Shown here: positions 3,394 to 43,286 of the stretch, piece after piece
How positions within the stretch are numbered: position 1 is the stretch's first letter
How the letters are laid out: each line of letters begins with the position of its first letter
IMG/VR virus record: IMGVR_UViG_3300035698_010358
Span: 1-64,000 of that record
DNA from: a virus
Reading direction: 5' to 3' (one strand)
Length of the DNA stretch: 64,000 nt
Notes under the pieces: generated by a model
What the model was told of the DNA's origin: nothing
The model's input: the letters and a program-made list of their open reading frames with translations, nothing else
Database searches by the model: none
Made by a program: the position numbers and the translations under genes

Positions 3394-5000
3394 TGGCATT
3401 TATGAAGTTTGCTCACGCAACAGTCGTTCAACCACACGTGTCAGCTAATAGTTGGAGTAAAGTCCGAACTGCTGGTGATGTGGCCAAATCAGGTAGTGAC
3501 TTGGATAAGAACCTTATTGTCCGAGCCTCAAAATTATTTGAACAGGACTTCAAACCGAGTGATTTTCTTTTAACCCACGCTACCATCATTGCTTCAGTTG
3601 ACACGTTTGCTCCTGTCGGGGTGAAGACAGGTGCTCAACTGGTGGATGGATTCCAGGTTAACCGTAAATACTCAGATTTCAGAATCACAGCTTCCACTGA
3701 TAAATTCGTCAACAACAATAACGATGCTTGGGCACGAGATGTCCTCATGAAGTCCTACCAGACGTTCGTGGGGGGCCATAATTTCGTCGAACACATCCAG
3801 GTAGAGGAATTGTCCCGTGGGAGAATCATTGATGCCGTAGCTCGTGATGTCGGTGATTCCATCTATGTTGACATTCTCATTGCCACTGACCGTAAACACA
3901 CTGATCTGATTCAGGCTATTGAGTCTGGAAAAATGAGTACCTTATCTATGGGTTGTACTGTAGATGGGACGATTTGTTCGAAGTGTGGTCATTGGGCAGC
4001 AGACGAAACCGAAATGTGTCCCCATATCAAGTATGAGAAGGGGAACACCTTTTTTGATGAACAGGGGCGTCAGTCCCGGGTTGCAGAGCTTTGCGGTCAC
4101 GGAACAATTGACCCTCATGGTGGTGTTCATTTTGTTGAAGCCTCCTGGGTAGAACAACCTGCATTTACTGGGGCAGTTCTACGGAACGTGTTGGAGCCTA
4201 CTCCTATCACAATAGCTAAAGTTCAGGAAGTTTTATCTTCTGTACCTCCACAATGGTCGGATAATGATCAGCTAAAGGCTGCCAGTATCCGAACTGATAT
4301 TTCTTCTGAAGCCCCTATAGTGGCTGCAAGGATAGTGGATGGCACTTTCGTACAGACCAAAGTAGCTGTTGGAAACATTGGGGAAGCCCAACGTTTTGCA
4401 GCTTATGGTGGTGCAGACCCGTTCTTAGCAGGCTGGGAAGATGAGGGTGAAGCTGAGGGTGAAGCTGAGGGTGAAGCTGAAATGAGTGACACCCCTCCGA
4501 CCGGACAACCTGCCAAAAGTCCGTTGGAAGATGCTGAGGAAGACCTTGAAAAACATTTGATGAACCGAGTAGTTCAAAGAATGAAAGACAAGATGAAAGA
4601 CAAGGCTGTGGGTGAGGCCCTTGGTGGTGAATCCTCAATGGCACCAAATGACAGTCTCGTTAAAGAGGGGACTGTCGGTAGAATGTATAAAGCAGCTTTG
4701 AAAACTATTGTCAGGAAAACATCAAGTGATGCTGACATGGTGGATTCTTTAGCTGATTATCATCAGACAATAGGTATTGATATTCCTGTAGAAATCTATA
4801 GGGCATCTTTAGTAGTTGGTTCTCATAAGAAATATAGCTCAGTGAATACGTTCTGGAGTGCTTGCTGTCGGGTTCTTGGACGTGTACCGAGTCATTATGA
4901 GGCAAAAACAATATTAAGAATTTCTAAATTGCTAACCCAGAGGAAGTCTTTGGGTAGTGATTTTCAATCAGGCAGCCGCCGTAAGGAGAAAACGAGATGA
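3393..5000 (+). CDS. Putative capsid maturation (prohead) serine protease
   Basis: A 535-residue protein whose N-terminal ~200 residues match the HK97/T4-type prohead protease pattern. The likely catalytic His lies in 'GGHNFVEHIQV' (~127-137), followed by a strand motif 'SIYVDILIATDR', and the likely catalytic Ser in 'MSTLSMGC' (~181-188). A Cys/His cluster follows (CSKCGH...CPHIK, ~196-214, and CGH near 233) and suggests a zinc site. An EGEA repeat linker (bases 4443-4481) leads to a separate C-terminal helical domain. The family cleaves scaffold and N-termini of head proteins inside the prohead. Placement between head genes and just before the acidic scaffold-like gene supports the call. 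Stop overlaps the next start (ATGA). Confidence 0.75.
   Translation: MAFMKFAHATVVQPHVSANSWSKVRTAGDVAKSGSDLDKNLIVRASKLFEQDFKPSDFLLTHATIIASVDTFAPVGVKTGAQLVDGFQVNRKYSDFRITASTDKFVNNNNDAWARDVLMKSYQTFVGGHNFVEHIQVEELSRGRIIDAVARDVGDSIYVDILIATDRKHTDLIQAIESGKMSTLSMGCTVDGTICSKCGHWAADETEMCPHIKYEKGNTFFDEQGRQSRVAELCGHGTIDPHGGVHFVEASWVEQPAFTGAVLRNVLEPTPITIAKVQEVLSSVPPQWSDNDQLKAASIRTDISSEAPIVAARIVDGTFVQTKVAVGNIGEAQRFAAYGGADPFLAGWEDEGEAEGEAEGEAEMSDTPPTGQPAKSPLEDAEEDLEKHLMNRVVQRMKDKMKDKAVGEALGGESSMAPNDSLVKEGTVGRMYKAALKTIVRKTSSDADMVDSLADYHQTIGIDIPVEIYRASLVVGSHKKYSSVNTFWSACCRVLGRVPSHYEAKTILRISKLLTQRKSLGSDFQSGSRRKEKTR
4443..4481 (+). repeat. 12-bp tandem repeat (GAGGGTGAAGCT x3)
   Basis: Three near-perfect copies of a 12-base unit encode an EGEA linker between the protease domain and the C-terminal domain. 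It is probably a slippage-prone flexible spacer. Confidence 0.85.
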
Positions 5001-6559
5001 AAAAGCAGCGTGAGCGTATGACGTGGGCTGCGGGTCGTAAGGCGAGTGCCCCACCCGCAGTTCCTGGCTACAACGTGGAAGACCAAGATCATCCAGCACA
5101 CAACGGACCCGATCCTGACATGCACAAGTATGAAAATGGTGATACGTCCAGTTGGGCTGAAGATGTCCGTCAACCCCCTTACCCCGAAGGCAATCCTCCG
5201 GCTACCCCCGGATATGATGCTGAAGACCAGGACCACCCGGCTCACCAGAGTCCACCTCGTGTGTCCCTGACAGCAGCCGTTCGGAAACGTGCCAGCAAAT
5301 GTCTGAAACTTGCAGGCATTCAGTTGGATGGCAGGAAGATGACCAAAGCTCAAATCGAAGACCATGCAATGGACTTGATGGAGCTGGGTGACTCTCAAAT
5401 CGATAACATGCTTAACCGTTTCGGTGGTGGGTTCCTCGCTGACGAAATGGATATGGGAGAAGTTACCGAACCGATTGCTGATGATCTGGACGAACTTCTG
5501 TCGATGGATGAATTGGAAGATGATATGGCTCTCGAAGAACCTATCCTTGCTTCTGATGACGATGACGATGACGATGATGAGTCTGATAAGGAAGCATCTT
5601 CTGAAAAGACAGCAGTGGAATCCATCATGGCAAAACTGGAAGCCATGTCCGCTGATATTGCTACTCTGAAAGGTGATGTTGTTGCATCTGATGATGATGA
5701 TGATGACGAAGAAGAACCTGACAAAGAAGCAGCCAGTCAGAATGACCCTAAAGGTCCAACCCTTGCTCCAACTCCGAAGTCAGAAGATGAAGCCCGTAAA
5801 GAGGCTTCTGACCCTATCCTTCAGGAATTCGATTCGTATGACACCGGTAAAACGGGATTCGTCAGCGTTGATGAATGGCAGGGCAGTAAAGCTGTGTTTG
5901 CAGCACTGGATACCGACAACGACAAGATTCTTGCTCGTGTCGACCTTGTAGCTTCCTGTAGTTCAGTAGTCGAAGCAGGTCTGGAACCTGAAGAAGTGGC
6001 TATGTTGGCTGAGATGACAGCGGGTGCTGAAGTTGGAGCCTCTGCCTGTAACCCAACTTCTGACATCCTTGAAGATGAAGAGATGATGGGTGATCCGATG
6101 GAACTGGAACTCATGGATGAGCCTCTCGTAGGTGAGCCCATGATTGTGGCTGAAGAAGATGCTGGTATGTTCGGCATGACGCATGACCCAATGGGACTCT
6201 CTGACGGTGCTCCTATCATGTCCTCTGAGGACGATGCCATGCTCGAAGAAATCTTCGGTGGTAAAGTTGCCAAGAAATCCGATGACGATGACGAAGAAGT
6301 TATCGAAGAAGAAGTCGAAGGCAAAAAGAAATCAGCTAAGAAATCTGATGCTGAAGAAGAAGAAGAAGTCGTAGAGGAAGAAGTCGAAGGCAAGAAAAAA
6401 GCTGCCAAGACTGCTTCCCAACGGCCTCAACCCCGTAAGAGGAGTGCTGGTGTCCAGCAGGTTGGGAACATGACCAAAGCTGCTTCCAGTAACGAATTCA
6501 AAGAACTCCAGAGCATGTGGGCATCTGATCCTGACGTGTCTGACGTGTTCGGTAGCTAG
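4997..6559 (+). CDS. Acidic scaffold/prohead core-like protein
   Basis: A 520-residue, strongly acidic protein. Two 'PGYxxEDQDHPAH' repeats lie near the N-terminus, then several Asp runs. An EF-hand-like segment (~275-315, with 'DSYDTGKTGFVS' and 'DTDNDKI') follows, and a C-terminal Lys/Glu region repeats 'EVEGKKK'. Start overlaps the protease stop by four bases, the usual order of protease followed by scaffold. Acidity, low complexity and position indicate a scaffolding or core protein degraded or packaged during maturation. The EF-hand resemblance is visual only. A terminator follows. Confidence 0.65.
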   Translation: MKKQRERMTWAAGRKASAPPAVPGYNVEDQDHPAHNGPDPDMHKYENGDTSSWAEDVRQPPYPEGNPPATPGYDAEDQDHPAHQSPPRVSLTAAVRKRASKCLKLAGIQLDGRKMTKAQIEDHAMDLMELGDSQIDNMLNRFGGGFLADEMDMGEVTEPIADDLDELLSMDELEDDMALEEPILASDDDDDDDDESDKEASSEKTAVESIMAKLEAMSADIATLKGDVVASDDDDDDEEEPDKEAASQNDPKGPTLAPTPKSEDEARKEASDPILQEFDSYDTGKTGFVSVDEWQGSKAVFAALDTDNDKILARVDLVASCSSVVEAGLEPEEVAMLAEMTAGAEVGASACNPTSDILEDEEMMGDPMELELMDEPLVGEPMIVAEEDAGMFGMTHDPMGLSDGAPIMSSEDDAMLEEIFGGKVAKKSDDDDEEVIEEEVEGKKKSAKKSDAEEEEEVVEEEVEGKKKAAKTASQRPQPRKRSAGVQQVGNMTKAASSNEFKELQSMWASDPDVSDVFGS

Positions 6560-17422: not shown

Positions 17423-17668
17423 ATGGAAACGACAAAAGAATTTAGAACTTCAGACCTCTATTTTGCAGCTTATCTGAAAGTGGCTGGTGTGGAATTCAAA
17501 GGAACGACCAAAGAAGGAAATCGAGTTTTCTTCATGTTCGAGTCTGGGGGAAGTATTCCTGACCTGAAAACACAGTATTTCAACCGGGTGGCTAAGGTCC
17601 CAGCCCTGACGTTCGTGGATGAAGTTCGTTCAATGAAGGGTCTGACTTACATGGAAACAGGAAGCTAA
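17423..17668 (+). CDS. DUF5659-like small protein
   Basis: An 81-residue protein. ATG at 17423 is chosen over upstream in-frame starts because AAGGAG lies at correct spacing. The pattern 'FRTSDLYFAAYLKVAGVEFKG...NRVFFMFE...YFN...VPALTFVDEVRSMKGL' resembles the DUF5659 family, small proteins frequent in phages and mobile elements with no known function. It ends immediately before the next start. Confidence 0.7.
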   Translation: METTKEFRTSDLYFAAYLKVAGVEFKGTTKEGNRVFFMFESGGSIPDLKTQYFNRVAKVPALTFVDEVRSMKGLTYMETGS

Positions 17669-18028
17669 ATGGCCACTGTCCTTGCTAATAGTCCATTCAC
17701 ATTTCAGGTTTTATTCCTGGATGTGGACAATACCCCAATTGTTGTGTTGAATCCAACGATTACTATATTCAGTTATAGTGACCTTGGGGTAAAACAAGAG
17801 TTGGTTGCTGCCACCGTAATGGATCCAGTTACCCCCGTGGAAGTTGGCCGTTATATTTACACGTATACCGTGCCCAGTGTTTTTGATGAAGGGGATATGA
17901 TTTACGGTGAGATAATGGGAGAGCATCCTGTCAGTGGAGACCTTCTACGGTATAGTGAAGGTGTCTCAGTGGTGACGTTGCCGCCGGGGTCCCAAGGGTT
18001 GTCTTGGAATATCATCAAAGGTGGTTGA
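17669..18028 (+). CDS. Small beta-rich connector-like protein
   Basis: A 119-residue protein that starts directly after the preceding stop. The whole sequence reads as alternating strands (FTFQVLFLDVDNTPIVVL, TVPSVFDEGDMIYGEIMG), consistent with an Ig-like or beta-sandwich fold. It resembles in general layout the N-terminal part of the first fragment of the fractured gene at 18688 (beta-sandwich with 'GRYIYTYTVP' compared with 'GEYYASLMVP'). A neck or adaptor role is inferred only from position. Confidence 0.65.
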   Translation: MATVLANSPFTFQVLFLDVDNTPIVVLNPTITIFSYSDLGVKQELVAATVMDPVTPVEVGRYIYTYTVPSVFDEGDMIYGEIMGEHPVSGDLLRYSEGVSVVTLPPGSQGLSWNIIKGG

Positions 18029-18030
18029 AA

Positions 18031-18327
18031 ATGCTGTGGGTTTTGTTTCTTTTAGCCGTGTATGGCATCGTGTTCCTGCTCAGGCATAAATGGGAGCTGG
18101 GGTTTCTTCGTGGCTTCGAGTTCTTTGAGAGGCTATTGGACTGTGCCTTCTGTTTAGGTTTCTGGGTTGGAGGTCTAGTATGGACGGTCATTCAGACATT
18201 TTCCGACCTCATCATGGACACTAATAGTTGGATTGGGTTCTTTTTCTTCGGGATTATGTGGTCCTTTGCTTCAGCAGCGTTCTGTTACAACGTGGATAGA
18301 ATCGTGGAGGATTCAGAATGGATATGA
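18031..18327 (+). CDS. Membrane protein with a CxxCLGFW motif
   Basis: A 98-residue hydrophobic protein. ATG at 18031 is preferred over the upstream TTG because AAGGTGG lies six bases upstream and it avoids overlap. It has an N-terminal hydrophobic segment (LWVLFLLAVYGIVFLL), a middle segment with 'LDCAFCLGFWVGGLVW', and a third (FFFFGIMWSFASAAF), so two to three membrane spans. The 'C-F-C-L-G-F-W' motif resembles DUF1360-type membrane proteins. It probably acts in the host membrane; lysis, superinfection exclusion or assembly roles cannot be distinguished. Confidence 0.7.
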   Translation: MLWVLFLLAVYGIVFLLRHKWELGFLRGFEFFERLLDCAFCLGFWVGGLVWTVIQTFSDLIMDTNSWIGFFFFGIMWSFASAAFCYNVDRIVEDSEWI

Positions 18328-18686
18328 GGATAGATTGCCAAGTAGACGTACCTATAGAGGTTCAAGGTGGTAATTTTGCTGATGCCTTTCGGATCATCAC
18401 TTTAAAAAATGATGAGTGTCTTTTGGATTTCATGTCCATCTCACAATGCCGTACCAAAGCATCTGTTGTGGCCAGAATCCGTGTAGAGAATAAATTCATG
18501 GCTTCTATTAGGGATCGATTGGAATCAACCCTGGAAGAAATAGATGGTAAGCATTACGGTACTCTGACACCAAAACAAGTTGAAGAGATGTGGTTTTTAG
18601 TAGACCAGTTTCCGATAGATGATGACCAGGAAGAAGGAGCATTACCATTAGCTTGGTATGTAACCCCTTCAGAAAAGGTAGATTAA
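18318..18686 (+). CDS. Paralogue of the 8876 protein with a C-terminal extension
   Basis: A 122-residue protein starting inside the end of the membrane protein gene with GGAGG seven bases upstream. Residues ~20-75 (DAFRIITL...LLDFMSI...ASVVARIRV...MASIRDRLESTLEEI) align with most of the 77-residue protein at 8876. Residues ~76-122 are an acidic extension absent there. It is immediately followed by the fractured gene, so it may be an assembly partner; function unknown. Confidence 0.65.
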   Translation: MDMRIDCQVDVPIEVQGGNFADAFRIITLKNDECLLDFMSISQCRTKASVVARIRVENKFMASIRDRLESTLEEIDGKHYGTLTPKQVEEMWFLVDQFPIDDDQEEGALPLAWYVTPSEKVD

Positions 18687-18687
18687 G

Positions 18688-19188
18688 ATGTCAGTTGCAT
18701 TTGTTCCTGGAGAAACGATAGGGCGGGGGGATCTGGACATTTTCTTGCAGAGTGCTCAAGGTAACCCTGCAAATGCAGCAGAGATTTATTACACCCTCTA
18801 TTACGTATCCCCCGGACCCCCCGAATCTGAAGTTCAGGTTGGACAACCCCAACGAATACCAGTGAATCCAGCCGTCGGGGAGTATTATGCTTCTCTAATG
18901 GTTCCAGCAGGCTCAACCCCTGGGACGTATAGGATTCGGTGGACGTTCCGAGAATTGGTGAATTCTCCCCAGCAGCAAGTTGTTCAAGAATTTGCTGTTG
19001 TCACTGCAGCAGGGATAGCATTGGTTCCTGGATATGACCCGTATCAAACAGCAATGATGAATAGTCTTAGAATGCTTCTCAGAGATCAGTGTGTTGGTGA
19101 GGAGGTGAAAGTCGAAGTAGATGCCGACGGGGAACTTCTGGTTGTGTCTATGAAGGACTTATGGGAGGCTTTGAAAGATGAAGTCTAG
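18688..19188 (+). CDS. Fractured virion gene, piece 1: N-extein plus IntN of split intein 1
   Basis: A 166-residue product. Residues 1-134 are the N-terminal extein: an Ig-like beta domain (~1-100) followed by a helical start ending 'MLLRDQ'. From Cys135 (base 19090) the sequence changes to an intein block A pattern, CVGEEVKVEV, and stops after only 32 intein residues. The missing intein blocks B, F and G are at the start of the piece at 20085, where the extein resumes with Cys. Known atypically split inteins also have short N-halves. The product should ligate by trans-splicing to piece 2. The host protein is unnamed; position and C-terminal pieces indicate a connector/neck or other virion protein. 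Confidence 0.85.
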   Translation: MSVAFVPGETIGRGDLDIFLQSAQGNPANAAEIYYTLYYVSPGPPESEVQVGQPQRIPVNPAVGEYYASLMVPAGSTPGTYRIRWTFRELVNSPQQQVVQEFAVVTAAGIALVPGYDPYQTAMMNSLRMLLRDQCVGEEVKVEVDADGELLVVSMKDLWEALKDEV

Positions 19189-20101
19189 CCAACCACATGT
19201 AAAACTAGTACCCTTGTTAGAGAAATATAATATTTCTTGGGGTTTATTTTGTAAAAAAGGTCGTTTGCCTAATGACTTGAAGTGGGTAAAAGAGAAACGT
19301 GTGTTTATCATTACAGAATTACACTCTCAAGGCACCTCCTGGGCCAATATGGTATTTATTACGGGTTTGTCTCAAGGTTCTATTCAGCGTTTAACTAAAG
19401 CTATGTGGAACCAAGCATCACGGGACAAATTGAATAAAATAGGTGAGAAGGTTGGGAAATCATGGAAAGGTAAAAAACGTCTAGGGCAATTAGAAAAACA
19501 ATGGAAAAATGGCGTTTTTGATTTTCATCGAGGACGGAAAAGACCGGAGTGGGAAAAAGAAAAATTACGTGCTTCATGGACACCTGAATTAAGGGCACAA
19601 GTATCGGAAGAACGGTTAAAACGGTGGCAAGACCCGGAATACCGAAAAAACCTTTTAGATTACCACAGAAGTCCTGAAGTTAGGGCTGAGAGGTCTAAAT
19701 TACAAACAGAACGGATACTGGCTGATCCTGTGAAATGGACAAAGGGTCGGGGTGCTTATGTTGAGGCTCTAAAAGAAAAACGAGAGGTTGTGTGGACACG
19801 GAGTTCATATGAACGAAGAGCTCTCTTAGTATTAGATAGTGATCCTAATGTGGTTTCTTATGAGTATGAACCACGGATAGAGTTGTCTGATGGTTTTTGG
19901 ATAGTTCCTGATTTTTTAGTGTTCTTTAAAGATGGGTCTCAAACTCTTTTAGAAATAAAAGCCTCTTGGGTATACGGTCTTCCAGAGGGCCATAAAATTC
20001 ACATTAGATTAGAGAAATCTAAAAAGTTAGCTTGTGATAGAGGTTGGGGTTTTTCTATATGGACTGAGAAAGATAGGTTGGAAGATGTTAAGTGTGCATA
20101 A
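19178..20101 (+). CDS. Free-standing putative homing endonuclease, PD-(D/E)XK type, inside split intein 1
   Basis: A 307-residue basic protein encoded between the two halves of split intein 1, overlapping piece 1 by 11 bases and piece 2 by 17. An N-terminal HTH-like region (~40-75) and repeats of the NUMOD3 kind (RWQDPEYRKNLLD, HRSPEVRAERS, ~145-180) suggest DNA binding. The C-terminal ~100 residues contain 'SYERRAL', 'VPDFLVFF' (~242-249) and 'LLEIKAS' (~256-262), the Asp...Glu-x-Lys arrangement of PD-(D/E)XK nucleases. Inferred to cut intein-less alleles and spread the split intein. It is AT-richer and Lys-richer than the exteins, consistent with foreign origin. Confidence 0.75.
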   Translation: MKSSQPHVKLVPLLEKYNISWGLFCKKGRLPNDLKWVKEKRVFIITELHSQGTSWANMVFITGLSQGSIQRLTKAMWNQASRDKLNKIGEKVGKSWKGKKRLGQLEKQWKNGVFDFHRGRKRPEWEKEKLRASWTPELRAQVSEERLKRWQDPEYRKNLLDYHRSPEVRAERSKLQTERILADPVKWTKGRGAYVEALKEKREVVWTRSSYERRALLVLDSDPNVVSYEYEPRIELSDGFWIVPDFLVFFKDGSQTLLEIKASWVYGLPEGHKIHIRLEKSKKLACDRGWGFSIWTEKDRLEDVKCA

Positions 20102-20849
20102 CAAATTGGTTCAGGCTTTTCGTGCAGGGAAACTGAAAACCCGATCTGTATCCCCTGAAGGAAAATTGGAGTGGAAACCCATAACGGATGTTCATAGGGC
20201 TGAAGTTCCTTGGGAAGAGATTATACAGGTTGGCACAGATCAAGGACATACTTATCTGACTAAAGGGCACAGGGTTTTTGTATCCCCTACTGCAAAACGG
20301 GAAACTGGGGATTTAATAAAAGGTGATGGGGTTCTAGGTGTAGATTTACAGGATAATGTATTTCATCCTGTAATAGTGTCTACAGATACTGTACCATCAC
20401 GTAAATATATGTATGATATGACTGTTGCAGACTGGCATAATTTTGTTTTGTTCGATTCTCGGATTGTTATTAGTAATTGCCCTGATAAATTCTACCATTT
20501 CCGACCACCAGAGTATGAAGGTGACATTGGCCAATACAATCGAATATTCGGACAGATTTGGGAAGATGCTGAACTTCTGGAATATCTGTTGAGATCTTTG
20601 GATTGGTTCAACATGTTCCCTCCCCTGACACAGAAAATCAATACTCTCACACGTTTGGTTCAAGATATGCCCTCGTGGAGGACAGCGATCCTTTGGGGCG
20701 CAATTACCCATGCCTGTTTTGCACTTTCAATAAATTGGGTTGCTGACGAATTTTCTGTTAGGGGTGACCAGGAAGTGACCGTTATAACAAAAACAGGGAA
20801 AAAGGTTACGTTGTCTATTCAGGAGTTGTATGAAATATGCAAGGGATGA
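20085..20849 (+). CDS. Fractured virion gene, piece 2: IntC of intein 1, middle extein, IntN of intein 2
   Basis: A 254-residue product with three parts. Residues 1-131 are intein 1 C-part: a block B-like 'YLTKGHRVFV', block F 'YDMTVADWHNF' and block G 'RIVISN' directly before Cys (base 20478). Residues 132-223 are the middle extein, starting CPDKFYHFRPPEYEG and ending 'INWVADEF'. Residues 224-254 begin SVRGDQEVTV (base 20754), block A of a second intein, and stop. ATG 20085 is chosen for the upstream TTGGAAG. The penultimate intein residue is Ser rather than the usual His. This protein must splice at both ends. Confidence 0.85.
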   Translation: MLSVHNKLVQAFRAGKLKTRSVSPEGKLEWKPITDVHRAEVPWEEIIQVGTDQGHTYLTKGHRVFVSPTAKRETGDLIKGDGVLGVDLQDNVFHPVIVSTDTVPSRKYMYDMTVADWHNFVLFDSRIVISNCPDKFYHFRPPEYEGDIGQYNRIFGQIWEDAELLEYLLRSLDWFNMFPPLTQKINTLTRLVQDMPSWRTAILWGAITHACFALSINWVADEFSVRGDQEVTVITKTGKKVTLSIQELYEICKG

Positions 20850-21787
20850 TAACAAAACGACAAATTTTGTTGAAATACGGGTTCAATGACAAGACTTTCC
20901 GAAAGATGATGTCCGAGGGGGTTGTCAGCCCTGATTATATTCAACAAGGTAAAAGAAAAACCTTATTTTTTAAAGAGGGCTCTTTGAGGTTTGTTGAAAA
21001 CCTTCACTATGTTATTTGTTTAGAGTGTGGAAAATGGATGAGTCAGATCACCACGAAGCATTTAAAAAGCTGTAGTGGAATGGTATTGCAGGATTACAAG
21101 GAAAAGTACCCTAAAGTTCTATTGATCTGTTATAGGACTAATGGTAACCATGTAAAAACAGAAGAACAAAAGCAAAGACAGTCAGATGTTTTAAAGGCAC
21201 GTTTCCAAACGGAAGAAGGGCAGAAAACCCGAGAAGTTATTTGCCAAGCATCTATTCGTTTAATGAAAGGCCCGTATCGTAAACAAGCTGCAAAACACCT
21301 AAAGGATTTGAATCAGACTACCAAGATGAAGGAATTTCATCGGGGGCATACCAAGAAAAGATGGGAAGATGGCGGGGATCTTCGGTATCTTATCCCAAAA
21401 TGGCATCTGGATAATAAGGATTATTCAAATCAATTGGCCGCAAATGCTCGTAGGTTTATAAAGAAAATTTCAAAGCCGCACATTAGGTTAAAAGTTTTAT
21501 TGGAAGCTGCTGGTATCCCAACAGTTACGGAATATGAAGTCGGTTACTATGCCATTGATGAAGCAATTCCAGGGAAAAAGATATCCATTGAGATGCATGG
21601 TTGTTATTGGCATAGTTGTCCTGTTTGTGGGTTGGAAGGTCCTTCCCTGAATAAAAGGATTGACAAGTCTAAAGCTACTTATCTGAAAAATAGGGGTTGG
21701 GAACTTGTAGTGATTTGGGAACATGAGTTGAAAAATAATCCTGAAATGTGTATTGATCGGGTGAAGGAGGTTGTAATAGGATGTTGA
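20837..21787 (+). CDS. Free-standing putative homing endonuclease, Vsr-like, inside split intein 2
   Basis: A 316-residue protein between the halves of split intein 2, overlapping piece 2 by 13 bases (4 if translation starts at ATG 20846) and piece 3 by 7. N-terminal region: HTH-like 'MITKRQILLKYGFNDKTFRKMM', then a ROS/MucR-like zinc finger 'CLECGKWMSQITTKHLKSC' (~60-80). C-terminal region: 'ISIEMHGCYWHSCPVCG' and 'NRGWELVVIWEHEL' (~247-297), the layout of very-short-patch-repair (Vsr) nucleases. Vsr-like (EDxHD) homing nucleases are the family reported with fractured genes and split inteins. Inferred to mobilise intein 2. Confidence 0.8.
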   Translation: MQGMITKRQILLKYGFNDKTFRKMMSEGVVSPDYIQQGKRKTLFFKEGSLRFVENLHYVICLECGKWMSQITTKHLKSCSGMVLQDYKEKYPKVLLICYRTNGNHVKTEEQKQRQSDVLKARFQTEEGQKTREVICQASIRLMKGPYRKQAAKHLKDLNQTTKMKEFHRGHTKKRWEDGGDLRYLIPKWHLDNKDYSNQLAANARRFIKKISKPHIRLKVLLEAAGIPTVTEYEVGYYAIDEAIPGKKISIEMHGCYWHSCPVCGLEGPSLNKRIDKSKATYLKNRGWELVVIWEHELKNNPEMCIDRVKEVVIGC

Positions 21788-22467
21788 CTGATGCTTTAAA
21801 AAGAGAGATTAAGGAATCCTTTGAAGAGGGTTCCCTGAAAGTCCTTAGCGTGAACCCAGATTCTTTAGAGCCCTCTTTAGAATCGGTTACTGATGTTATG
21901 AGGCATCTTACTCCTCATAAAACAATTTTGGATGTTGAGACCTCACAGGGGCATACTGTTACGACTGAAGATCACAGTTTGTTCATGGAGGATATGTCTA
22001 CGGTACCAACTTCTGAGTTGCAGGTGGGGGGTTGTATTGCTTGTATTCAGAACGGGGTCTATCAACCGACCCCTATTCTGGGCATTTCGGAAACGTTGAG
22101 GGAACAATATACTTATGATTTATCTGTCCCTTCATTTGAGAATTTTGTCTTGTCCAATGGAGTGGTTGCACATAACTCATATAGCATAGGGGGAGTGTCC
22201 TTAGATATCGATAAATCTGCCAAATATGAGTCCTTAAAGCAGAATGCTGAGGGACAACTGACTTTGGCCACCGAGGCCAAGCAACGGACAGTGAAATTCA
22301 TTCGTGGGCTACAGCAGCCCAGATTCGGGATGGGTGTTAGGTCGAGTTTTGGCCCGTTTGTGGGGAAAGGTATACTTAGCCCTCGTAATTTCGTGGCTTG
22401 GGCTTCTGTTATATTAGTACCAGCTTTGATGTTTGTTAGTTCTGCTAACAGTTCAGGTTTGGTCTAG
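21781..22467 (+). CDS. Fractured virion gene, piece 3: IntC of intein 2 plus C-extein
   Basis: A 228-residue product. Residues 1-132 are intein 2 C-part: 'TVTTEDHSLFM' (block B, T-x-x-H), 'YDLSVPSFENF' (block F, with Glu where His is common) and 'GVVAHN' (block G) directly before Ser (base 22177). Residues 133-228 are the last extein, beginning SYSIGGVSLDID, with 'RSSFGPFVGKGILSPRNFVAW' (read in parts) and a hydrophobic C-terminus. ATG 21781 follows AAGGAGG. After two trans-splicing events the exteins (134+92+96) give one 322-residue protein with junctions LLRDQ/CPDKF and VADEF/SYSIG. Confidence 0.85.
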   Translation: MLTDALKREIKESFEEGSLKVLSVNPDSLEPSLESVTDVMRHLTPHKTILDVETSQGHTVTTEDHSLFMEDMSTVPTSELQVGGCIACIQNGVYQPTPILGISETLREQYTYDLSVPSFENFVLSNGVVAHNSYSIGGVSLDIDKSAKYESLKQNAEGQLTLATEAKQRTVKFIRGLQQPRFGMGVRSSFGPFVGKGILSPRNFVAWASVILVPALMFVSSANSSGLV

Positions 22468-22648
22468 GTGTATGTTTGATAGAAGTTTAGAATTACGTAT
22501 TGGGGGTAATGTTCTTAATTAACTGTTGTATTTTTTGTATGCGTTGGTTAATATCTGTGTTTATTTCAGAAATAAGAAGCCTGAGATCACGGTTAATAGG
22601 ATTCAAAGGTTCCTTGGTATTCGGTAAGGTAGTTATAATTACCTTATT

Positions 22649-22659
22649 AGTATTGAAGG
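22649..22659 (+). promoter_or_regulatory. Candidate phage promoter element (AGTATTGAAGG)
   Basis: It lies 20-30 bases before the ATG at 22680, downstream of GGTTCCTTGGTAT and of a dyad (TAAGGTA / TTACCTTA, about 22624-22645). It resembles the elements at 6656, 17365 and 25507. It is in the 212-base gap after the fractured gene, in which I see no gene. Confidence 0.35.
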
Positions 22660-22679
22660 ATTTTTTAAGGAGATAGAAA

Positions 22680-23477
22680 ATGGATAAAGCATCTTTTACT
22701 TTTAATGAGAACTGGTTTTTCCCAGATCCTCCTGCTCGGATTGAGAATCTTCTTTATATGGCACAGAAAGTTGACCCTAGTGCTCATGTGGACGATTCTC
22801 AATACCAAAATAAAGTGGTGGTAGATAAGAAAAAGGCACCAGCCTTAATTAAGGTATTCGAATCCAAAGGAATGTTTGTGTCTGAAGAGAAACGTGGGGC
22901 CTACAAGGTGTTGTGGGGTAAAAAGCGGGCAAACGAGAGTCAGGGTTTACGTGGCCATGTAGAGAAATTAGCCAATGAGAACCCAGAGTTAAGGGGGCAT
23001 CTGGTTCCTTTGTTGAAACAGGCTGCAACACAAAAGTTTAATCCTGAGATGATCTCAAAAGCTAAGAAGCTCCTAAATACTATGAAAAATTATGGTTGGC
23101 AGTGGGGTGATGACAATCTGAAAGAAGTTTCTCGTAATGGGGAGTTTTATTTTTCACAGATGAGTCCTCATAATGCTCCTTGGGATGATGAAGAGGATTT
23201 CAAAACATATGTCCCTCCTTTTCGGGCAGGGCAGCTTTTTCGGAAATATAAAGTGGAGGACCACGCTGGATTGGTAGCAGTTCTTCATAAATTGCAGGAA
23301 CAGTGGAAGAAGGATTCCTTTAAGTTTTCGAGGGTTGTAGGTAAAATTACCCCAAAGGATGCTGATGTTAAGTTATTGTTTAACCCTGACCGTCAAGGTA
23401 CACTTTTTGCACAGGTATATGTGAATGCCCAGCCTTACCTAGAGTGGACAAGTCATCGTGCTAAAGAGGAGAAGTGA
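22680..23477 (+). CDS. Accessory protein with an internal ANENPELR signature
   Basis: A 265-residue protein with an AAGGAGATAG ribosome binding site. Residues 1-85 are a small alpha/beta domain (FTFNENWFFPDPPARIENLL). Residues ~93-118 hold the signature (VEKLANENPELRGHLVPLL) that is N-terminal in the genes at 8468, 24309 and 24766. Residues 120-265 are unrelated and Trp/Asp-rich. The internal signature suggests fusion of a separate small domain in front of a signature protein. Codon usage is more AT-rich than in the structural genes. Function unknown. Confidence 0.7.
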   Translation: MDKASFTFNENWFFPDPPARIENLLYMAQKVDPSAHVDDSQYQNKVVVDKKKAPALIKVFESKGMFVSEEKRGAYKVLWGKKRANESQGLRGHVEKLANENPELRGHLVPLLKQAATQKFNPEMISKAKKLLNTMKNYGWQWGDDNLKEVSRNGEFYFSQMSPHNAPWDDEEDFKTYVPPFRAGQLFRKYKVEDHAGLVAVLHKLQEQWKKDSFKFSRVVGKITPKDADVKLLFNPDRQGTLFAQVYVNAQPYLEWTSHRAKEEK

Positions 23478-23660
23478 TGTTGGAATGGTTTCAAAAATTG
23501 TTTATAGAAAAACCCCCCTGAGCCTCTACCCCTCAAGTATCGGGATTTAGGTAATAACGAGGTTGAAGTGTCTTGTGGTGACCGTAAAACTACAGCTATT
23601 TATTTTTCAGAGGCTGCTGTGGAATATATTGAAGCAGCTAAGAAAAGGATATTGTCATAA
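23477..23660 (+). pseudogene. Small gene interrupted by a one-base shift at a C6 run, or +1 programmed frameshift
   Basis: Starts at ATG 23477 (overlapping the previous stop). It reads 14 codons ending in Pro-Pro then TGA at the C-run 23513-23518. Skipping one base there gives a coherent continuation (PEPLPLKYRDLGNNEVEV...EAAVEYIEAAKKRILS) to TAA at 23660, where the next gene starts. Either one extra C arose by mutation or sequencing error, or ribosomes shift +1 at CCC-CCC-TGA; slippery CCC-U before a stop is a known +1 context. The intact product would be ~60 residues, function unknown. Confidence 0.55.
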
Positions 23661-24019
23661 TGTGGTGGGTATACGTCATACAATCTCAAGAAGTTCGGAC
23701 AGGTAAAAACGGTAAGATCTTACCTGGGTTCCATTACGTGGGATGCACAACTGACCCTGCTCGTCGTATAAGACAACACAACGGCTTGTTGACCGGCGGA
23801 GGGAAGTACACCAGTAAACATCGTCCGTGGGTGCCACGAGCTCTCTACGGCCCCTACAATGGACGATCTAATGCAATGAAGGCCGAGTATGCCCTAAAGC
23901 ACGGGAAACGCAGCACAGCTCGAACACGGTGGTCTGTAGAGGATTCTCCTTGGTGTCGAGGTAAAGGGTCAAACGACCCGTGGATTACTGACGGTATTTC
24001 CCCTATTGAGGACTCTTAA
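23660..24019 (+). CDS. GIY-YIG nuclease domain protein
   Basis: A 119-residue protein. Motifs of the GIY-YIG superfamily are in order: 'WWVYVIQS' (first Tyr), 'FHYVGCTTDPARRIRQHNG' (second Tyr and catalytic Arg) and 'KAEYALKHG' (catalytic Glu). The fold ends near residue 90 with a short Trp/Pro tail. Single-domain GIY-YIG proteins occur as repair-like nucleases and as homing endonucleases. With no intron visible nearby, a stand-alone nuclease (host DNA degradation, mobile gene or repair) is the best description. Confidence 0.8.
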   Translation: MWWVYVIQSQEVRTGKNGKILPGFHYVGCTTDPARRIRQHNGLLTGGGKYTSKHRPWVPRALYGPYNGRSNAMKAEYALKHGKRSTARTRWSVEDSPWCRGKGSNDPWITDGISPIEDS

Positions 24020-24046
24020 TAGAAACATTGTTGTAGGGAGACTGTC

Positions 24047-24226
24047 ATGAATACTTATAGAATAGTTAGTTCCAAGGTAGATGCCAATTTAACTCAAAAG
24101 TTAAAGAAGTTGAAGCCCAAAGCTCGTTCCCGTGGTGATTTTACAGGTGCCGTGTTACAGGCAGCTTTCTATGCTCGGAAAGAAAATGACACTTATTTCC
24201 TTGTAAATTGTATGGTCACATGGTAG
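24047..24226 (+). CDS. Short AT-rich gene, possibly frameshifted near its end
   Basis: A 59-residue frame with a GGGAG ribosome binding site, starting MNTYRIVSSKVDANLTQ and basic in the middle. A downstream frame (to TAA 24291) reads protein-like 'YGHMVASGAGSVQDPLSRY'. One added A in the AAA at 24205-24207 would join them into an ~81-residue protein. I therefore suspect either a real frameshift or a base error. Function unknown. Confidence 0.45.
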   Translation: MNTYRIVSSKVDANLTQKLKKLKPKARSRGDFTGAVLQAAFYARKENDTYFLVNCMVTW

Positions 24227-24308
24227 CCTCTGGTGCAGGGTCGGTACAAGACCCCCTGAGTCGTTACGATGTTGTAGTTTACGTAGGTTAATCTAATAGG
24301 AGATTATA

Positions 24309-24764
24309 ATGAGTTTCCGAGATAAAATAGCCAAATTGGCCAATGAAAATCCTGATGGGGTTAGAAAGCACTTAGTCCCCATTCTGAAACAGGCTGGTAG
24401 TGGTATCTATCAAATTTTCTTTAATATGTTTAAGAAAGCCTTTAAAGAATCTTGCACTGATCTATATACTCAATTCTACCGTGATTACAGTTGGGATAAC
24501 ATTGAAGGGGTGTCTTCGAGTATCAAACCTGGGCTTTGGGAAGTAGTTTCCAAGTATGGTCCTATGGTTGCAGTTTTTTATCACGCACAACCTACAAAAC
24601 TGACTATTACTTGTAGTCTTTTAAATCTTCACCACAAAATGGAAGAAGAGAGACAGATTATTTCTCTGGAGACTTTTCTAGCCCGTGATATGACTGAGAA
24701 AGATATGCAAGCTCTTATTATGAAATTCGTTATTAGCTGTGCTAAGAAGACCTGGAGAGGATAA
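24309..24764 (+). CDS. Small protein with N-terminal ANENPDG signature
   Basis: A 151-residue protein starting MSFRDKIAKLANENPDG, then 'RKHLVPILKQAG', the same leader as at 24766 and related to 8468 and 22680. The body (~30-151) has alternating strands and helices with Tyr/Trp/Cys and no known motif. AGGAGATT ribosome binding site. It is immediately followed by the paralogous leader at 24766, so the pair arose by duplication of at least the leader. Confidence 0.7.
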   Translation: MSFRDKIAKLANENPDGVRKHLVPILKQAGSGIYQIFFNMFKKAFKESCTDLYTQFYRDYSWDNIEGVSSSIKPGLWEVVSKYGPMVAVFYHAQPTKLTITCSLLNLHHKMEEERQIISLETFLARDMTEKDMQALIMKFVISCAKKTWRG

Positions 24765-29349: not shown

Positions 29350-29962
29350 AGCTAGGATTATTTGTACCTGCCCCTTTATCGGGATACCTGATTTAGGGTT
29401 GACCATGAAACGTGGTCAATCTGCCATAATCCCTGAAGAAAAAGCTAGATCTTCCAAGGATTTACAGATTGCTGAAAAAAACGGTGGGGTGACTGTAGCA
29501 TATATTAAGAGATTCCAAGAACTTAAACCAGCCCTAGAGACTGTTCCTCGTAAAGTTCCGTTGCCACCTTCTATACGGCAACCTAACCCACCTCCTGTTG
29601 AAGTCGTCAGGGTAGAGAAGATGACTCTGGATGAGGATGCCTTGGTGGAGAAATTGGCTGCTAAGATGAACTCTTTACGTGATGGCAACACGAATGCCCT
29701 GATAGATTCTCTGATAGGGGAAGTTCAGTCTATGAGGGAAGATATTGCAAAAGGACAGCAGAATCCTCAGATTGTGAGGGAGGTTGTTCGTTCTGAGGGT
29801 ACAGTAAAAGAAGATGTCCCCATGTTCATTCCCAAGACTATTATGGGGAAAGATGCTGAGGACGTTAAGATAGAGATTAAAGAAACTACTTCAGAAGGCA
29901 CTGTGGATGAGGCTTCCAAAGCCTTACGTGCTTTACGGAAGAAAAAGGAGAAGAAATCATGA
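29342..29962 (+). CDS. Coiled-coil protein upstream of the actin-like gene
   Basis: A 206-residue protein. ATG at 29342 overlaps the end of the previous gene by eight bases; the track of in-frame codons extends 24 bases further upstream to a GTG without a better site. Residues 1-60 form a small domain ('ICTCPFIGIPDLGLTMKRGQ'), then a Pro-rich linker. A helical region (~92-150, 'EDALVEKLAAKMNSL...LIGEVQSMREDIAKG') and a basic C-terminus (ALRALRKKKEKK) follow. It overlaps the next start by four bases. It could be a partner of the actin-like protein; function unknown. Confidence 0.65.
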   Translation: MVEARIICTCPFIGIPDLGLTMKRGQSAIIPEEKARSSKDLQIAEKNGGVTVAYIKRFQELKPALETVPRKVPLPPSIRQPNPPPVEVVRVEKMTLDEDALVEKLAAKMNSLRDGNTNALIDSLIGEVQSMREDIAKGQQNPQIVREVVRSEGTVKEDVPMFIPKTIMGKDAEDVKIEIKETTSEGTVDEASKALRALRKKKEKKS

Positions 29963-30993
29963 CAGACGATAAAAAACCTGTGGAAACACCAGTTCCGGCA
30001 GCTTCTATTCCTTTCGGGGTTGGCCTCGACATCGGGACCATGAATGTCGTATCGGCCCGTCGTGGAAAAAACGGCATCACCTCCAAACGGATGAGAGATG
30101 TCTTCATTGACTTACCCCTTAGTGCCAAGAAGATGCTGAGTCTGTCTTCCACCAGCTTCGTTGAACGAGAAGACGATATTTTGATTCTGGGAGATGCTGC
30201 TTTGGAGACGGCCAATGTTTTCGGGACCCCTCCACGTCGTCCACTCTCTGACGGGATTATCTCATCCTGTGAGATCGATAGCTTGGAAGTTCTCGGAATG
30301 CTCATCAAGAATGTCTTGGGAGAACCGAGGGTGAAAGATGAAGCATGTTATTTCTCCGTCCCGGCAGACCCAACGGATTCTGACAAAAATATTATTTATC
30401 ATCGTGGTGTGCTTGAACAAATTATAACAGAGTGTGGGTATACCCCTTATGCTGCTAATGAAGCTATGGCTATTATTTATTCAGAGACTGCTAAGGAGGG
30501 GTTTTCTGGGATCAGCCTATCTTTTGGATCGGGTATGGTAAATGCTGCTTTGTCTATTAACACCATTGAAGGTCTGACGTTTTCCACTTCTCGATGTGGA
30601 GACTGGATCGATGCTGGTGCTGCCAGTTCCGTCGGCCAGACTCAGGCTCGTATCTGTGCCCTGAAAGAGAAGGGCTTCGACCTGATGAAACCTGAAGGCC
30701 GTGAACAAGAAGCTCTGGCCTTCTATTACAAGTCGGCCATCAACTATGCCCTAGACAACATTGAGGAACGGTTCAAGGCCATCCAGAACAAGTTCTCCTT
30801 GTCCAAGCCCATCCCCATCGTGGTATCGGGTGGTACAAGCCTGGCTGGGGGATTCATGGACTTCTTCAATGACGTTTTCAAGAAACGGAAGAAGTTCCCC
30901 ATCGAGATTTCTGATATTCGACATGCTCAGGAACCTTTGAATGCTGTTGCCTATGGACTGTTAATTCAAGCCATCCAAGAACACGAGGATTAA
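29959..30993 (+). CDS. Actin/Hsp70-superfamily ATPase
   Basis: A 344-residue protein with the three nucleotide-binding motifs of the actin/ParM/Hsp70 fold. Phosphate 1 is 'GVGLDIGTMNVVSARR' (~20-35), phosphate 2 is 'GISLSFGSGMVNAALS' (~183-198) and the adenosine motif is 'PIVVSGGTSLAGGF' (~286-299). The length fits a compact ParM/MreB-like protein. It lies between structural genes and the terminase-like ATPase, overlapping the preceding gene. Phage actin homologues can move DNA or capsids or act as chaperones; which applies here is open. Confidence 0.8.
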   Translation: MTDDKKPVETPVPAASIPFGVGLDIGTMNVVSARRGKNGITSKRMRDVFIDLPLSAKKMLSLSSTSFVEREDDILILGDAALETANVFGTPPRRPLSDGIISSCEIDSLEVLGMLIKNVLGEPRVKDEACYFSVPADPTDSDKNIIYHRGVLEQIITECGYTPYAANEAMAIIYSETAKEGFSGISLSFGSGMVNAALSINTIEGLTFSTSRCGDWIDAGAASSVGQTQARICALKEKGFDLMKPEGREQEALAFYYKSAINYALDNIEERFKAIQNKFSLSKPIPIVVSGGTSLAGGFMDFFNDVFKKRKKFPIEISDIRHAQEPLNAVAYGLLIQAIQEHED

Positions 30994-35091: not shown

Positions 35092-38000
35092 ATGGCATTT
35101 CCTGGTAAATCATACGCACCACCAGGCGTCTACACGAGAACGCTTTTCGAGAACCCCCTTTCTGGAGCTATCGATAGTTTCAAGATTCCGATTTTTATCG
35201 GTGAGGGAAACGAACACCTGGTTCAGAAGAATCTGGAGGTCGTTCGAGGGTCGTCCCGGGACATCGATCAAAAGATTGTCGGTGAAGACGAGGCTGGTCG
35301 TGCTGTAGTCAGTGTTACTCAGGCAGGTGTAATCACCTTGGGTGACTTTGACGGAACTTTGGACAAGATTCAAGTCCGTAAATACCCCATCACTGACGGT
35401 CAAGGTTCGGGTACAACCACGAACAGCCGTTCCGATGTGGTTGTCACCATCAACAATCAGATTATGGTTGTTCGACAGGTGGATGGGGCTACTGGTGTTA
35501 TTAAATTGGCACAGCCTCCGCGGGTCACGGATGAAGTCCGGGTCACTTACTTCTTCAAACGAACGGATACTCTGACCACTGATGATGTCAGTGACCAAGT
35601 GAATCCTGATCCGGCAGTCGTTCGGGGTGTTAACGGTATAGCTGATGTAGACTCCCCGGTCGGACAAGAAGGCTCGATTGGTTCTGGTGCAGTCATTGAC
35701 TTGCACGGGGATATCACCAATGCCTCTGGACAAGTTGTCGTTCCGGCCAACAATGTTCTGAATCTGGTTATCGACGGTGTGAAATACACTATTACCCTGG
35801 CTGCTCGGAACGATTATACGATGTCTCAGATTGCTGCTGCTATCACAGCAGCCAATAAGGGTACTCTGACAGCCAGTGCTTTCATCAATAATTTTGGCCT
35901 TTCTGCACTTTTATTGAATGCCAGCGGTAGCATTGTCGTCAGTGCCGGTTCAGCCAATGCTCTTTTAGGACTCATTACGGGTTCTGCTGACACTCGAACC
36001 TCAACTTTCTATACCTTCGAAGGTCCCATCGTAGATGGCTCCAACGGTGGTGTAACGACTACTGATCCTGCTAAAGTGGTGGTCAAGGTCAATAACACTC
36101 AGGTCATTCCCGTATCGGTGAATGGTTCTACACGGGCAGTCACTTTGTCAGCAGCTCCTAAAGCTGGTGCTACTGTGACTATTCAATACTGGTTCAACGC
36201 TTGGCAGGATACATTTGATTACCTGCAACATAATGGGATCACTGAGATTACTAAGTGTGGTGTGGCCCCTGAGTCCAAGTCCTATGTTCAGGAAACAGAT
36301 TTCGTCCTGAAAGACGATAAAATCGTCTGGGGTACAGCAGCTCTGGTTTCCAGCGGGATCCATACATCAGGTGCTTCCTTGTTTGGGGAAACTCAAATCA
36401 CCAGTACTCTGATAGACAATAAAACGTTCCTCTCAACTTGTACACCAGTTGTGCAGAGCAGTGGTGGTATTTCTTCCGATAACCGGATGGACTTCACACT
36501 CCCCTTCCAGCCGACTCTCGGTAATGGGCGAAATACCCCCTTGGGTCAAAGTCTGTTCCAGACGGTCAGCAACGGACGTATCGACCTTCCGACCAACCGC
36601 CCAGACGTGGTGGATGTGTATTGGGGTTATGATGTTCAGGATGCCCTTGACCGTGGCAAAGTGGAAGTGGACAAAGTAGAAGGTATTACCGTTTCGTTGG
36701 CTGAATCCGTTCCCGTCGGAGCAATAGTATTTGCTTCCTTCTGGTACAACCTTCTGACAGATGAAGAGTACACCATAACATGTGTGAATCCTGGGGCTTC
36801 CGGTTCTGGTACATACACCATCATTGACAAAGGTGACTCTGAAGTCTACGGTGTCACACTTAACACTGGCACCAAGGGTTCATCCCTTAACGGTGTCACC
36901 CTTGAATTCCCATCAGGTTCCGAGTTGACCCCTGATCTTCACTTTGAAGGTTTGTCTGGTGACGACTTTGTTGGCCCTGTTGAAGAAATCGTGACAGTAC
37001 AGTTTTCTTCCCGTGTGGCTACTCCTGCAAAATGGACGATGCCTGGTGCAGGACCTTACGAATTCATCAAGAGTTACTCCGACAGACTCAGAATTAAACT
37101 GCACACCTACGAATCCGTCGGTGTTGTGGGCCTGAACTTGGATAACCCTTCTGGTAGTGCGGCTATTGCAGGACACGGTGGTGGTTTCTTTGCTTCCGTT
37201 GTCGGTGACGAGGTGGATTATACAGGTGGTGTTGGTGCAACAATCGGTCAAAGTTATTCTTTGGCTGCAGCCGAAGACTTCTACCTCCAGGTAGATGATG
37301 CCAATATCCTGGTGAAAACATCCAGCACGGTGACAGATGTGGATGTCAGCTATTTTGCCGATGTCATCAATGAAGCTGCAAGTGGTCATCAGGCTTTGGC
37401 TTTGACAGGAGGTTCTAACGTAATAGGGCTTCCACATACCAAGTCCGATGTAAATAACTACTACGTTGGTTGGAGAGTGGTCATCGGTAACCATGCTCTC
37501 AGTGGTGCAACACCGGGCCAATACAGGACTATCACAGCTTACGATGGTACAACATGGGAAGCTACAGTGGATTCTGCCTGGGCTGGTGGTTCTGTTTCTG
37601 TAAACACTCCTTACTACATCTATAACCCAGATGCTCGTTCCACAATGGTCGGTGCAACTGAGTTCAACGGCCCCGTGACAATCACAGCAGGTGCCCATGA
37701 TAAATTGAACTTTGCTTACATAGGTGATGTTGTTTCGGTTGCTTTCGAGATTACATTAACACCTGGAACTTATGCTACTCCGGTCTTACTTGCTACCGAA
37801 GTCCAAGATCAGATTGATACTGAACTTGCTGCTGCTGGTGCTGCTGCTGCTGGTCTGAACATAGAATGTACGGCCAATGCTCAAGCCAAGTTGCAATTTA
37901 AAATACAACATGCTGGTTTGAACGCCGCTGGTTACATCCAGTTCCTTGATTCTACCAGTTCTCCTGATGAAGACTTTGCAGTCATCGCAGGGTTGGACAC

Positions 38001-42899: not shown

Positions 42900-43286
42900 A
42901 TGAAATATACGATTAGAGAACTGGCAAAGAAGACGGGGGTAACAGCCCGGACGATTCGTTATTGGATTACGGAGCAACTTATTCCGTCTCCAAACGGTTC
43001 CGGGCATGGGGCGGTTTCCACCGAGAAACACATGGAGGCCATTCTTCGGGTAAAGGAGATGAAAGATAAACAGGGTTTGACTCTGGCTGCCATCAAAATC
43101 AATCAGGGTTTCCCTGAAAACGAGGCAGTAGCATTACGAACCAGGCGGTTGACACATCTAGCACTAATTCCAGGAGTAGATTTGCTGATAGACGACAGTG
43201 TAGCCCCGCAACACAAACGATTAATCATTAAGGCCCTGTCAGATGTGGCCAAGACATTACCAACAGACAAAGGAGGACGATCATGA
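42900..43286 (+). CDS. MerR-family-like transcriptional regulator
   Basis: A 128-residue protein; ATG 42900 has AAAGGAG eight bases upstream, while an in-frame ATG at 42882 does not. Residues 1-70 are a MerR-type winged helix: 'YTIRELAKKTGVTARTIRYW', 'EQLIPSPNG', 'HMEAILRVKEMKDKQGLTLAAIK'. The C-terminal ~55 residues are short and lack an obvious metal-binding Cys site. It lies under its own host-type promoter beside a dyad and overlaps the VIT/VWA gene by four bases. It probably controls this operon, perhaps autogenously. Confidence 0.8.
   Translation: MKYTIRELAKKTGVTARTIRYWITEQLIPSPNGSGHGAVSTEKHMEAILRVKEMKDKQGLTLAAIKINQGFPENEAVALRTRRLTHLALIPGVDLLIDDSVAPQHKRLIIKALSDVAKTLPTDKGGRS

Follow-up and report, generated by a model that had tools for sequence, protein, structure and literature searches.

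How can a virus make one structural protein from a gene that lies in three pieces, with a nuclease gene in each break? The question is raised by a locus at positions 18,688 to 22,467 of a 64,000-nucleotide stretch of viral DNA (hereafter the window), which comprises positions 1 to 64,000 of IMG/VR record IMGVR_UViG_3300035698_010358, a record of 72,158 bases. Our reading, held with high confidence, is that a probable head-tail connector is assembled here by tandem protein trans-splicing, its gene having been repeatedly invaded by two homing intein/nuclease cassettes. In the proposed mechanism, two distinct lineages of homing cassette would have entered one structural gene at two fixed positions, here called J1 and J2. 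Three chains would then be translated: extein A followed by the N-terminal fragment of intein 1 (IntN1); the C-terminal fragment of intein 1 (IntC1) followed by extein B and IntN2; and IntC2 followed by extein C. IntN1 would pair with IntC1 and IntN2 with IntC2, with A joined to B by Cys1 chemistry onto Cys+1 and B joined to C by Ser1/Ser+1 oxyester chemistry. The outcome would be a single chain of about 322 residues that contains DQCPDK and TAILWGAITHACFALSINWVADEFSYSIGGVSLDIDK, with C and S at the positions of N and D in intein-free relatives, and the nucleases would spread each cassette to empty alleles.

A gene in three pieces and its intact relatives

The pieces are carried by three open reading frames (ORFs), whose boundaries and intein motifs are exactly those of an original prediction made from the DNA letters. 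Piece A (18688-19188) runs through LLRDQ/CVGEEVKVEV to a stop; piece B (20085-20849) begins with an IntC that leads to VISN/C and has the tail VADEF/SVRGDQEVTV, again followed by a stop; and piece C (21781-22467) begins with an IntC that leads to VAHN/S (Table 1). Parsing of the ORFs bears out the three predicted extein lengths and their sum of 322 residues, as well as a nuclease gene in each break, the two being of different families. The five ORFs of the locus overlap at all four of their boundaries, the likely start of nuclease 2 and the stop of piece B as ATGA, and this arrangement suggests translational coupling. A search of the rest of the 72-kb record gave no inteins beyond these two.

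Table 1. Parts of the broken gene and of the two intein/nuclease cassettes, in window coordinates.
Feature	Position	Strand	Remark
N-extein (A), 134 residues	18688..19089	+	Predicted beta-sandwich domain and first helix, from the model of an intact homologue (L005)
IntN1 of intein 1, 32 residues, Cys1	19090..19185	+	Stop 19186-19188; sequence CVGEEVKVEVDADGELLVVSMKDLWEALKDEV
Nuclease gene 1, 307 residues	19178..20101	+	TnsA-like PD-(D/E)XK type; overlaps the ORFs of pieces A and B
IntC1, 131 residues, ends VISN	20085..20477	+	Without penultimate His
Middle extein (B), 92 residues, first residue Cys+1	20478..20753	+	Homologue comparison
IntN2 of intein 2, 31 residues, Ser1	20754..20846	+	Stop 20847-20849; sequence SVRGDQEVTVITKTGKKVTLSIQELYEICKG
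Nuclease gene 2, 316 residues	20837..21787	+	EDxHD/Vsr-like; likely start ATG 20846
IntC2, 132 residues, ends VAHN, NX-motif RH	21781..22176	+	Pfam Intein_splicing, E 2.8e-12
C-extein (C), 96 residues, first residue Ser+1	22177..22464	+	Homologue comparison

Do the three exteins belong to one protein? Among viral contigs, 11 loci matched the middle extein, and searches with alignments of exteins and inteins, at most 80 loci being taken from each, brought the set to 101 distinct alleles; the intein searches enrich this set for occupied alleles, so that its frequencies should not be read as a census. (One locus, L187, resisted parsing and was left out; L197 and L198 match no more than the final 24 residues of the J2 intein and are without this gene.) In eight of the loci (L005-L012) the gene is uninterrupted and 58-92% identical to the window per segment, L005 and L007 being the closest among the loci found, at about 90% identity to the joined exteins. 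These eight leave exactly one residue between segments at each junction, and the three-piece anatomy of the window is therefore not a matter of chance. The original prediction had named intact homologues that fail to continue across the junctions as evidence that would count against it; all 63 distinct intact alleles run through both. Their single junction residue is mostly N at J1 (LLRDQ-N-PDKF) and D at J2 (ADEF-D-YSIGG), where the split alleles carry C and S.

The gene exists in several states: empty, with a contiguous mini-intein, split with a nuclease, and split without one. Giving the state of J1 before that of J2, the 101 alleles divide into 63 empty/empty, 13 empty/split, 12 split/empty, 6 split/split, 3 empty/contiguous, 2 contiguous/empty and 2 split/contiguous (L034 and L193). 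J1 is occupied in 22 alleles and J2 in 24, always at identical insertion positions. Association between the occupancy of the two sites was considered and rejected (odds 2.25, p 0.16; the intein searches had enriched the sample). Separately, five alleles with an empty J2 (L112, L131, L135, L139 and L205) have Ser and not Asp at +1 and may bear the scar of a precise loss of the intein.

The alleles that are split at both sites are those of the window, L004, L014, L182, L183 and L191. Every one of them comes from a metagenome assembly, as would be expected of an assembly artefact or a chimera of alleles, but the six lie on distinct contigs of 72 to 297 kb, differ in sequence and are broken at the same two positions. 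The four overlapping ORF boundaries of the window are also what real phage genes show, and we give an artefact almost no credence.

Both inteins carry the residues that splicing needs

A search of the pieces against intein models, which had been proposed as a check, finds the expected matches in both C-terminal fragments. IntC1 matches Pfam Intein_splicing below the cut-off (expectation value E 3.8e-4) and IntC2 matches it above the cut-off (E 2.8e-12), while both are above the cut-off of NCBIfam intein_Cterm. Profiles of the J1 and J2 inteins match solved inteins. The J1 profile matches the MJ0781 KlbA intein (E 3e-12), the Hint fold of J1 being assigned by profile only. The contiguous J2 intein of L034 is modelled as a Hint domain (predicted local distance difference test, pLDDT, 95.7), with the PhoCDC21-1 intein as best PDB match (E 3.5e-12). 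In the L034 model the split position of its relatives falls at residues 31-37, a loop between two helices.

The catalytic residues are complete. The first residue is Cys in 22/22 J1 inteins and Ser in 24/24 J2 inteins, and the TxxH of block B, the Asp of block F and the terminal Asn are each present in all 46. At +1, occupied alleles without exception (46/46) have either C or S if the junction is J1 and either S or T if it is J2, compared with C, S or T in 0/79 empty J1 junctions and 5/77 empty J2 junctions (Fisher p 1e-22 and 1e-18, ignoring the kinship of alleles). Furthermore, Ser1 inteins have been reported to have a common histidine in the NX motif (PMC10189870). This amounts to an independent prediction for the J2 group, and it holds: the histidine, with R or K before it in most cases, is present in 24/24 J2 inteins and in 0/22 J1 inteins. 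The block F/G region of the J1 intein in L026 reads DWYRFV...VLKN/S, without the HN pair of its relatives, and this intein is possibly impaired.

The split itself is of the atypical kind, with a short IntN and a long IntC in both inteins of the window; among relatives, IntN measures 29-37 residues at J1 and 31-43 at J2. The ratio of nonsynonymous to synonymous change (dN/dS) between the window and L004 is 0.07 for IntN1, 0.27 for IntC1 and 0.07 for IntN2, the synonymous sites of IntC2 being saturated. The intein pieces are thus under purifying selection wherever the ratio can be estimated. By these marks both are class 1 (Hint) inteins, atypically split, and would excise themselves and join their exteins.

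The same evidence bears on joining at the RNA level, by a group I or II intron, or on frameshifting. Introns also host homing nucleases, but here complete intein splice motifs stand at the junctions and the +1 residue is changed exactly as protein splicing requires. A group I or II intron was rejected, Rfam giving no match at E≤1 within 17500-24500, and we regard this explanation as exceedingly improbable.

Nucleases come and go while the splits persist

The two breaks hold nucleases of different kinds, TnsA-like PD-(D/E)XK ORFs being restricted to J1 and EDxHD/Vsr-like ORFs to J2. Nuclease 1 matches Pfam Tn7_TnsA-like_N (E 0.0011) and NCBIfam TnsA_like (E 1.3e-7), both below cut-off; its active-site letters PDF...EIK are present and, in the alignment, conserved in the TnsA-like J1 relatives. 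Part of the gene (19178-20098) is also matched by PHROG 218 (E 4e-7), a family with the label head closure, into which a nuclease has perhaps been merged. Nuclease 2 matches the homing endonuclease family PHROG 3339 (E 2.9e-11) and NCBIfam vsr (E 1.4e-5, below cut-off). It reads EMHGCYWH, and the alignment has Asp in place of this His in 14/16 relatives and Asn in one.

At J1 of L112 an HNH-type ORF (4500-5336) takes the place of the TnsA-like nuclease, which means that the nuclease of a split intein is exchangeable. In L004 both nucleases are lost and both splits are kept, with 76 and 67 bases between the pieces and short remnants of nuclease 1. Because split inteins persist after decay or loss of the nuclease, the nucleases would be dispensable for splicing. 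The J1 gap of L191 holds a remnant of nuclease 1 in frame with IntC1, a decaying nuclease next to an intact intein. Free-standing nuclease-like ORFs, noted by eye, also flank the gene in L005 (3444-4706), L008 (4481-5608 and 6506-7858) and L001 (1336-2460), and the locus may be a nuclease hotspot.

Among the contiguous inteins at the same sites, one looks re-fused. In L034 (6274-6780) the DNA of the J2 intein reads ...ATAAAAGAGGAG-CGTATGATGGATAAT..., whereas in its split relative L076 the IntN end is ATAAAAGAGGAG-GGTGAGGAGTAATG and the ribosome-binding site and start codons of IntC are CAAAGGAG-CGTATGATGGACAAC. The join between an L076-like IntN end and IntC start region lies at a shared GGAG, a microhomology, and the contiguous intein retains a fossil Shine-Dalgarno sequence and ATG ATG in its interior. 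The simplest explanation is that a deletion between two short repeats removed the nuclease and so healed a split intein. A second close pair consists of L193, which is contiguous, and L195, which is split, and from these comparisons split and contiguous forms appear to interconvert.

These observations also bear on the idea that the three pieces are separate subunits held together without splicing, their intein remnants decaying. Splicing is read here from sequence, and there is a precedent in the genes-in-pieces ribonucleotide reductase, a nuclease-broken phage gene that works as separate chains (as cited in PMC10448857). Yet the catalytic residues are complete in every one of the 46 inteins, the +1 nucleophile is present in all occupied alleles, IntN and IntC are under purifying selection, the splits of L004 outlast their nucleases, and the contiguous inteins at the same sites require cis-splicing to give the same product. 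We consider separate subunits very unlikely.

Two lineages and probable repeated invasion

In a tree of the 46 inteins the J1 and J2 groups separate with 100/100 support, and intein 2 is therefore not a recent copy of intein 1. Mapped on the extein tree, the split/split label implies at least five changes, and also five when only well-supported branches are kept; gains and losses are not distinguished in this count. Between L034 and L049 intein 1 is nearly identical (synonymous divergence, pS, 0.04-0.08) and the exteins are saturated (synonymous 0.75-0.97), and between L014 and L076 the pS of IntC2 is 0.18 vs 0.59-0.79 for the exteins. Both patterns are signs of recent transfer such as homing between diverged genomes would predict, and they point to it indirectly.

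Could the double split instead be a useful regulatory device, in which double splicing, being slow or conditional, sets the moment of head-tail joining? The double split has arisen or persisted repeatedly and, in L004, outlives its nucleases. On the other hand, 63 of the 101 alleles have neither intein, close relatives mix states as selfish homing elements would, and no conditional trait is in evidence. We judge a regulatory role decidedly improbable.

The host protein and its neighbours

The model of the intact L005 protein (pLDDT 73.9) has a beta-sandwich domain and, after it, helices; the two junctions, near residues 134 and 226, each fall in a loop or linker. PHROG 17327 matches 22/57 intact homologues, weakly (best E 6.4e-6), the homologue in phage Tunturi_5 is annotated as a head-tail connector, and phage G has a weak relative in gp165. 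A sequence and fold search of the PDB with the extein protein gave no sequence match, and fold matches that were weak only. The matches are suggestive, and the host protein is probably a head-tail connector. Elsewhere in the window lie genes for a head maturation protease and a major head protein, as well as a tail-sheath domain. Also noted were a 1772-residue protein (35092-40410) whose C-terminal 360 residues match tail sheath and whose N-terminal extension is very long, a Volactin, or actin relative (29959-30993, Pfam E 4.8e-70), and an 834-residue protein (43283-45787) that resembles, below the NCBIfam cut-off (E 9e-70), the marine proteobacterial sortase target protein.

Pairing of the pieces

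The original prediction held that two breaks in a row need two ordered or orthogonal splicing events. The need for correct pairing stands; an order of events is not implied by the anatomy. The middle chain has the order IntC-extein-IntN, as in engineers' constructs for cyclic peptides, and correct pairing is essential because IntN2 with IntC1 would cyclise or polymerise this chain, which would be bypassed if IntN1 paired with IntC2. Within a genome the two inteins share 26-32% identity, fall in separate groups and use different nucleophiles, which makes correct pairing plausible and is compatible with orthogonality; in the cell the pairs would presumably not cross-react. The nucleases would presumably cut empty sites. 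Atypically split inteins are thought to require threading of the N-extein through IntC (review PMC11766414), a constraint that would apply to both reactions of this locus. In the window, IntN1 is acidic (-7) against a basic IntC1 front, and IntN2 is near neutral against an acidic IntC2. Charge complementarity as a general pairing code was rejected, since the double-split L014 has two acidic IntN.

Several points weigh against tandem trans-splicing by mobile cassettes. Both the splicing and the pairing of the three pieces are deduced from the letters of the genes. In the window, intein 1 ends VISN and has no His in the penultimate position, a trait of 15/22 J1 inteins in all. Nuclease 2 of the window, with His for a conserved Asp, may be dead, and the connector assignment comes from weak matches. 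Finally, J1 and J2 inteins show no extra divergence within genomes (28.4% identity within vs 26.7% between, permutation 1702/2000); selection for orthogonality was rejected, J1-J2 identity being no lower within genomes than between them. A stronger version, in which an obligate three-piece virion protein has functionally orthogonal inteins, a middle piece that neither cyclises nor polymerises, and a reaction timing that gates head-tail joining, we hold to be unlikely.

Comparison with known systems

Dassa et al. reportedly described, in 2009, fractured genes in which a split intein and a free-standing homing endonuclease gene break the host gene in two, the hosts being enzymes of DNA synthesis and repair. 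Our locus resembles them in its phage setting, in the nuclease ORF within each split-intein break and in the Vsr-like (EDxHD) nuclease at J2. Each break of the window has a split intein and a free-standing nuclease gene in a conserved gene, but the gene is broken in three and not in two, by two lineages, and is a virion-assembly gene; the same alleles also occur here in contiguous form and without nucleases.

The jumbo phage MIJ3 has a split intein in DNA polymerase B with an HNH nuclease ORF between the halves (PMC6892783). It shares with our locus this arrangement, Ser1, the ending ...VHN/S and a jumbo phage setting, and differs in its single break and polymerase host. Other atypically split inteins, AceL-TerL (25/104 residues), GOS-TerL (37/115) and PolB16 OarG (15/168) (PMC11766414, PMC10189870), likewise combine a short IntN with a long IntC, in other genes and at other extein sites; J2 differs from them in that its inteins, split in the atypical way, also have the NX histidine and either Ser1/Ser+1 or Ser1/Thr+1. 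The family supplies naturally split inteins whose N fragments measure 29-43 residues, 20 of them Cys1 and 19 Ser1, the Ser1 class being rare and useful. In one gene it also presents two intein sites in every state, a re-fused allele included, which makes the origin and reversal of split inteins directly testable.

Literature searches, limited largely to freely available papers, turned up no natural gene that split inteins interrupt twice. Tandem trans-splicing of three segments is known as engineering (PMC12707363; PMC7210297). The engineered systems share with the window two inteins, three chains and a middle segment with IntC in front and IntN behind; they are man-made, and here the arrangement is natural and sits at a single locus. 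If our reading is true, this would be the first natural tandem protein trans-splicing known to us, of a scheme otherwise engineered, and the intein pairs of one genome may be ones whose non-interference nature has perhaps already tested.

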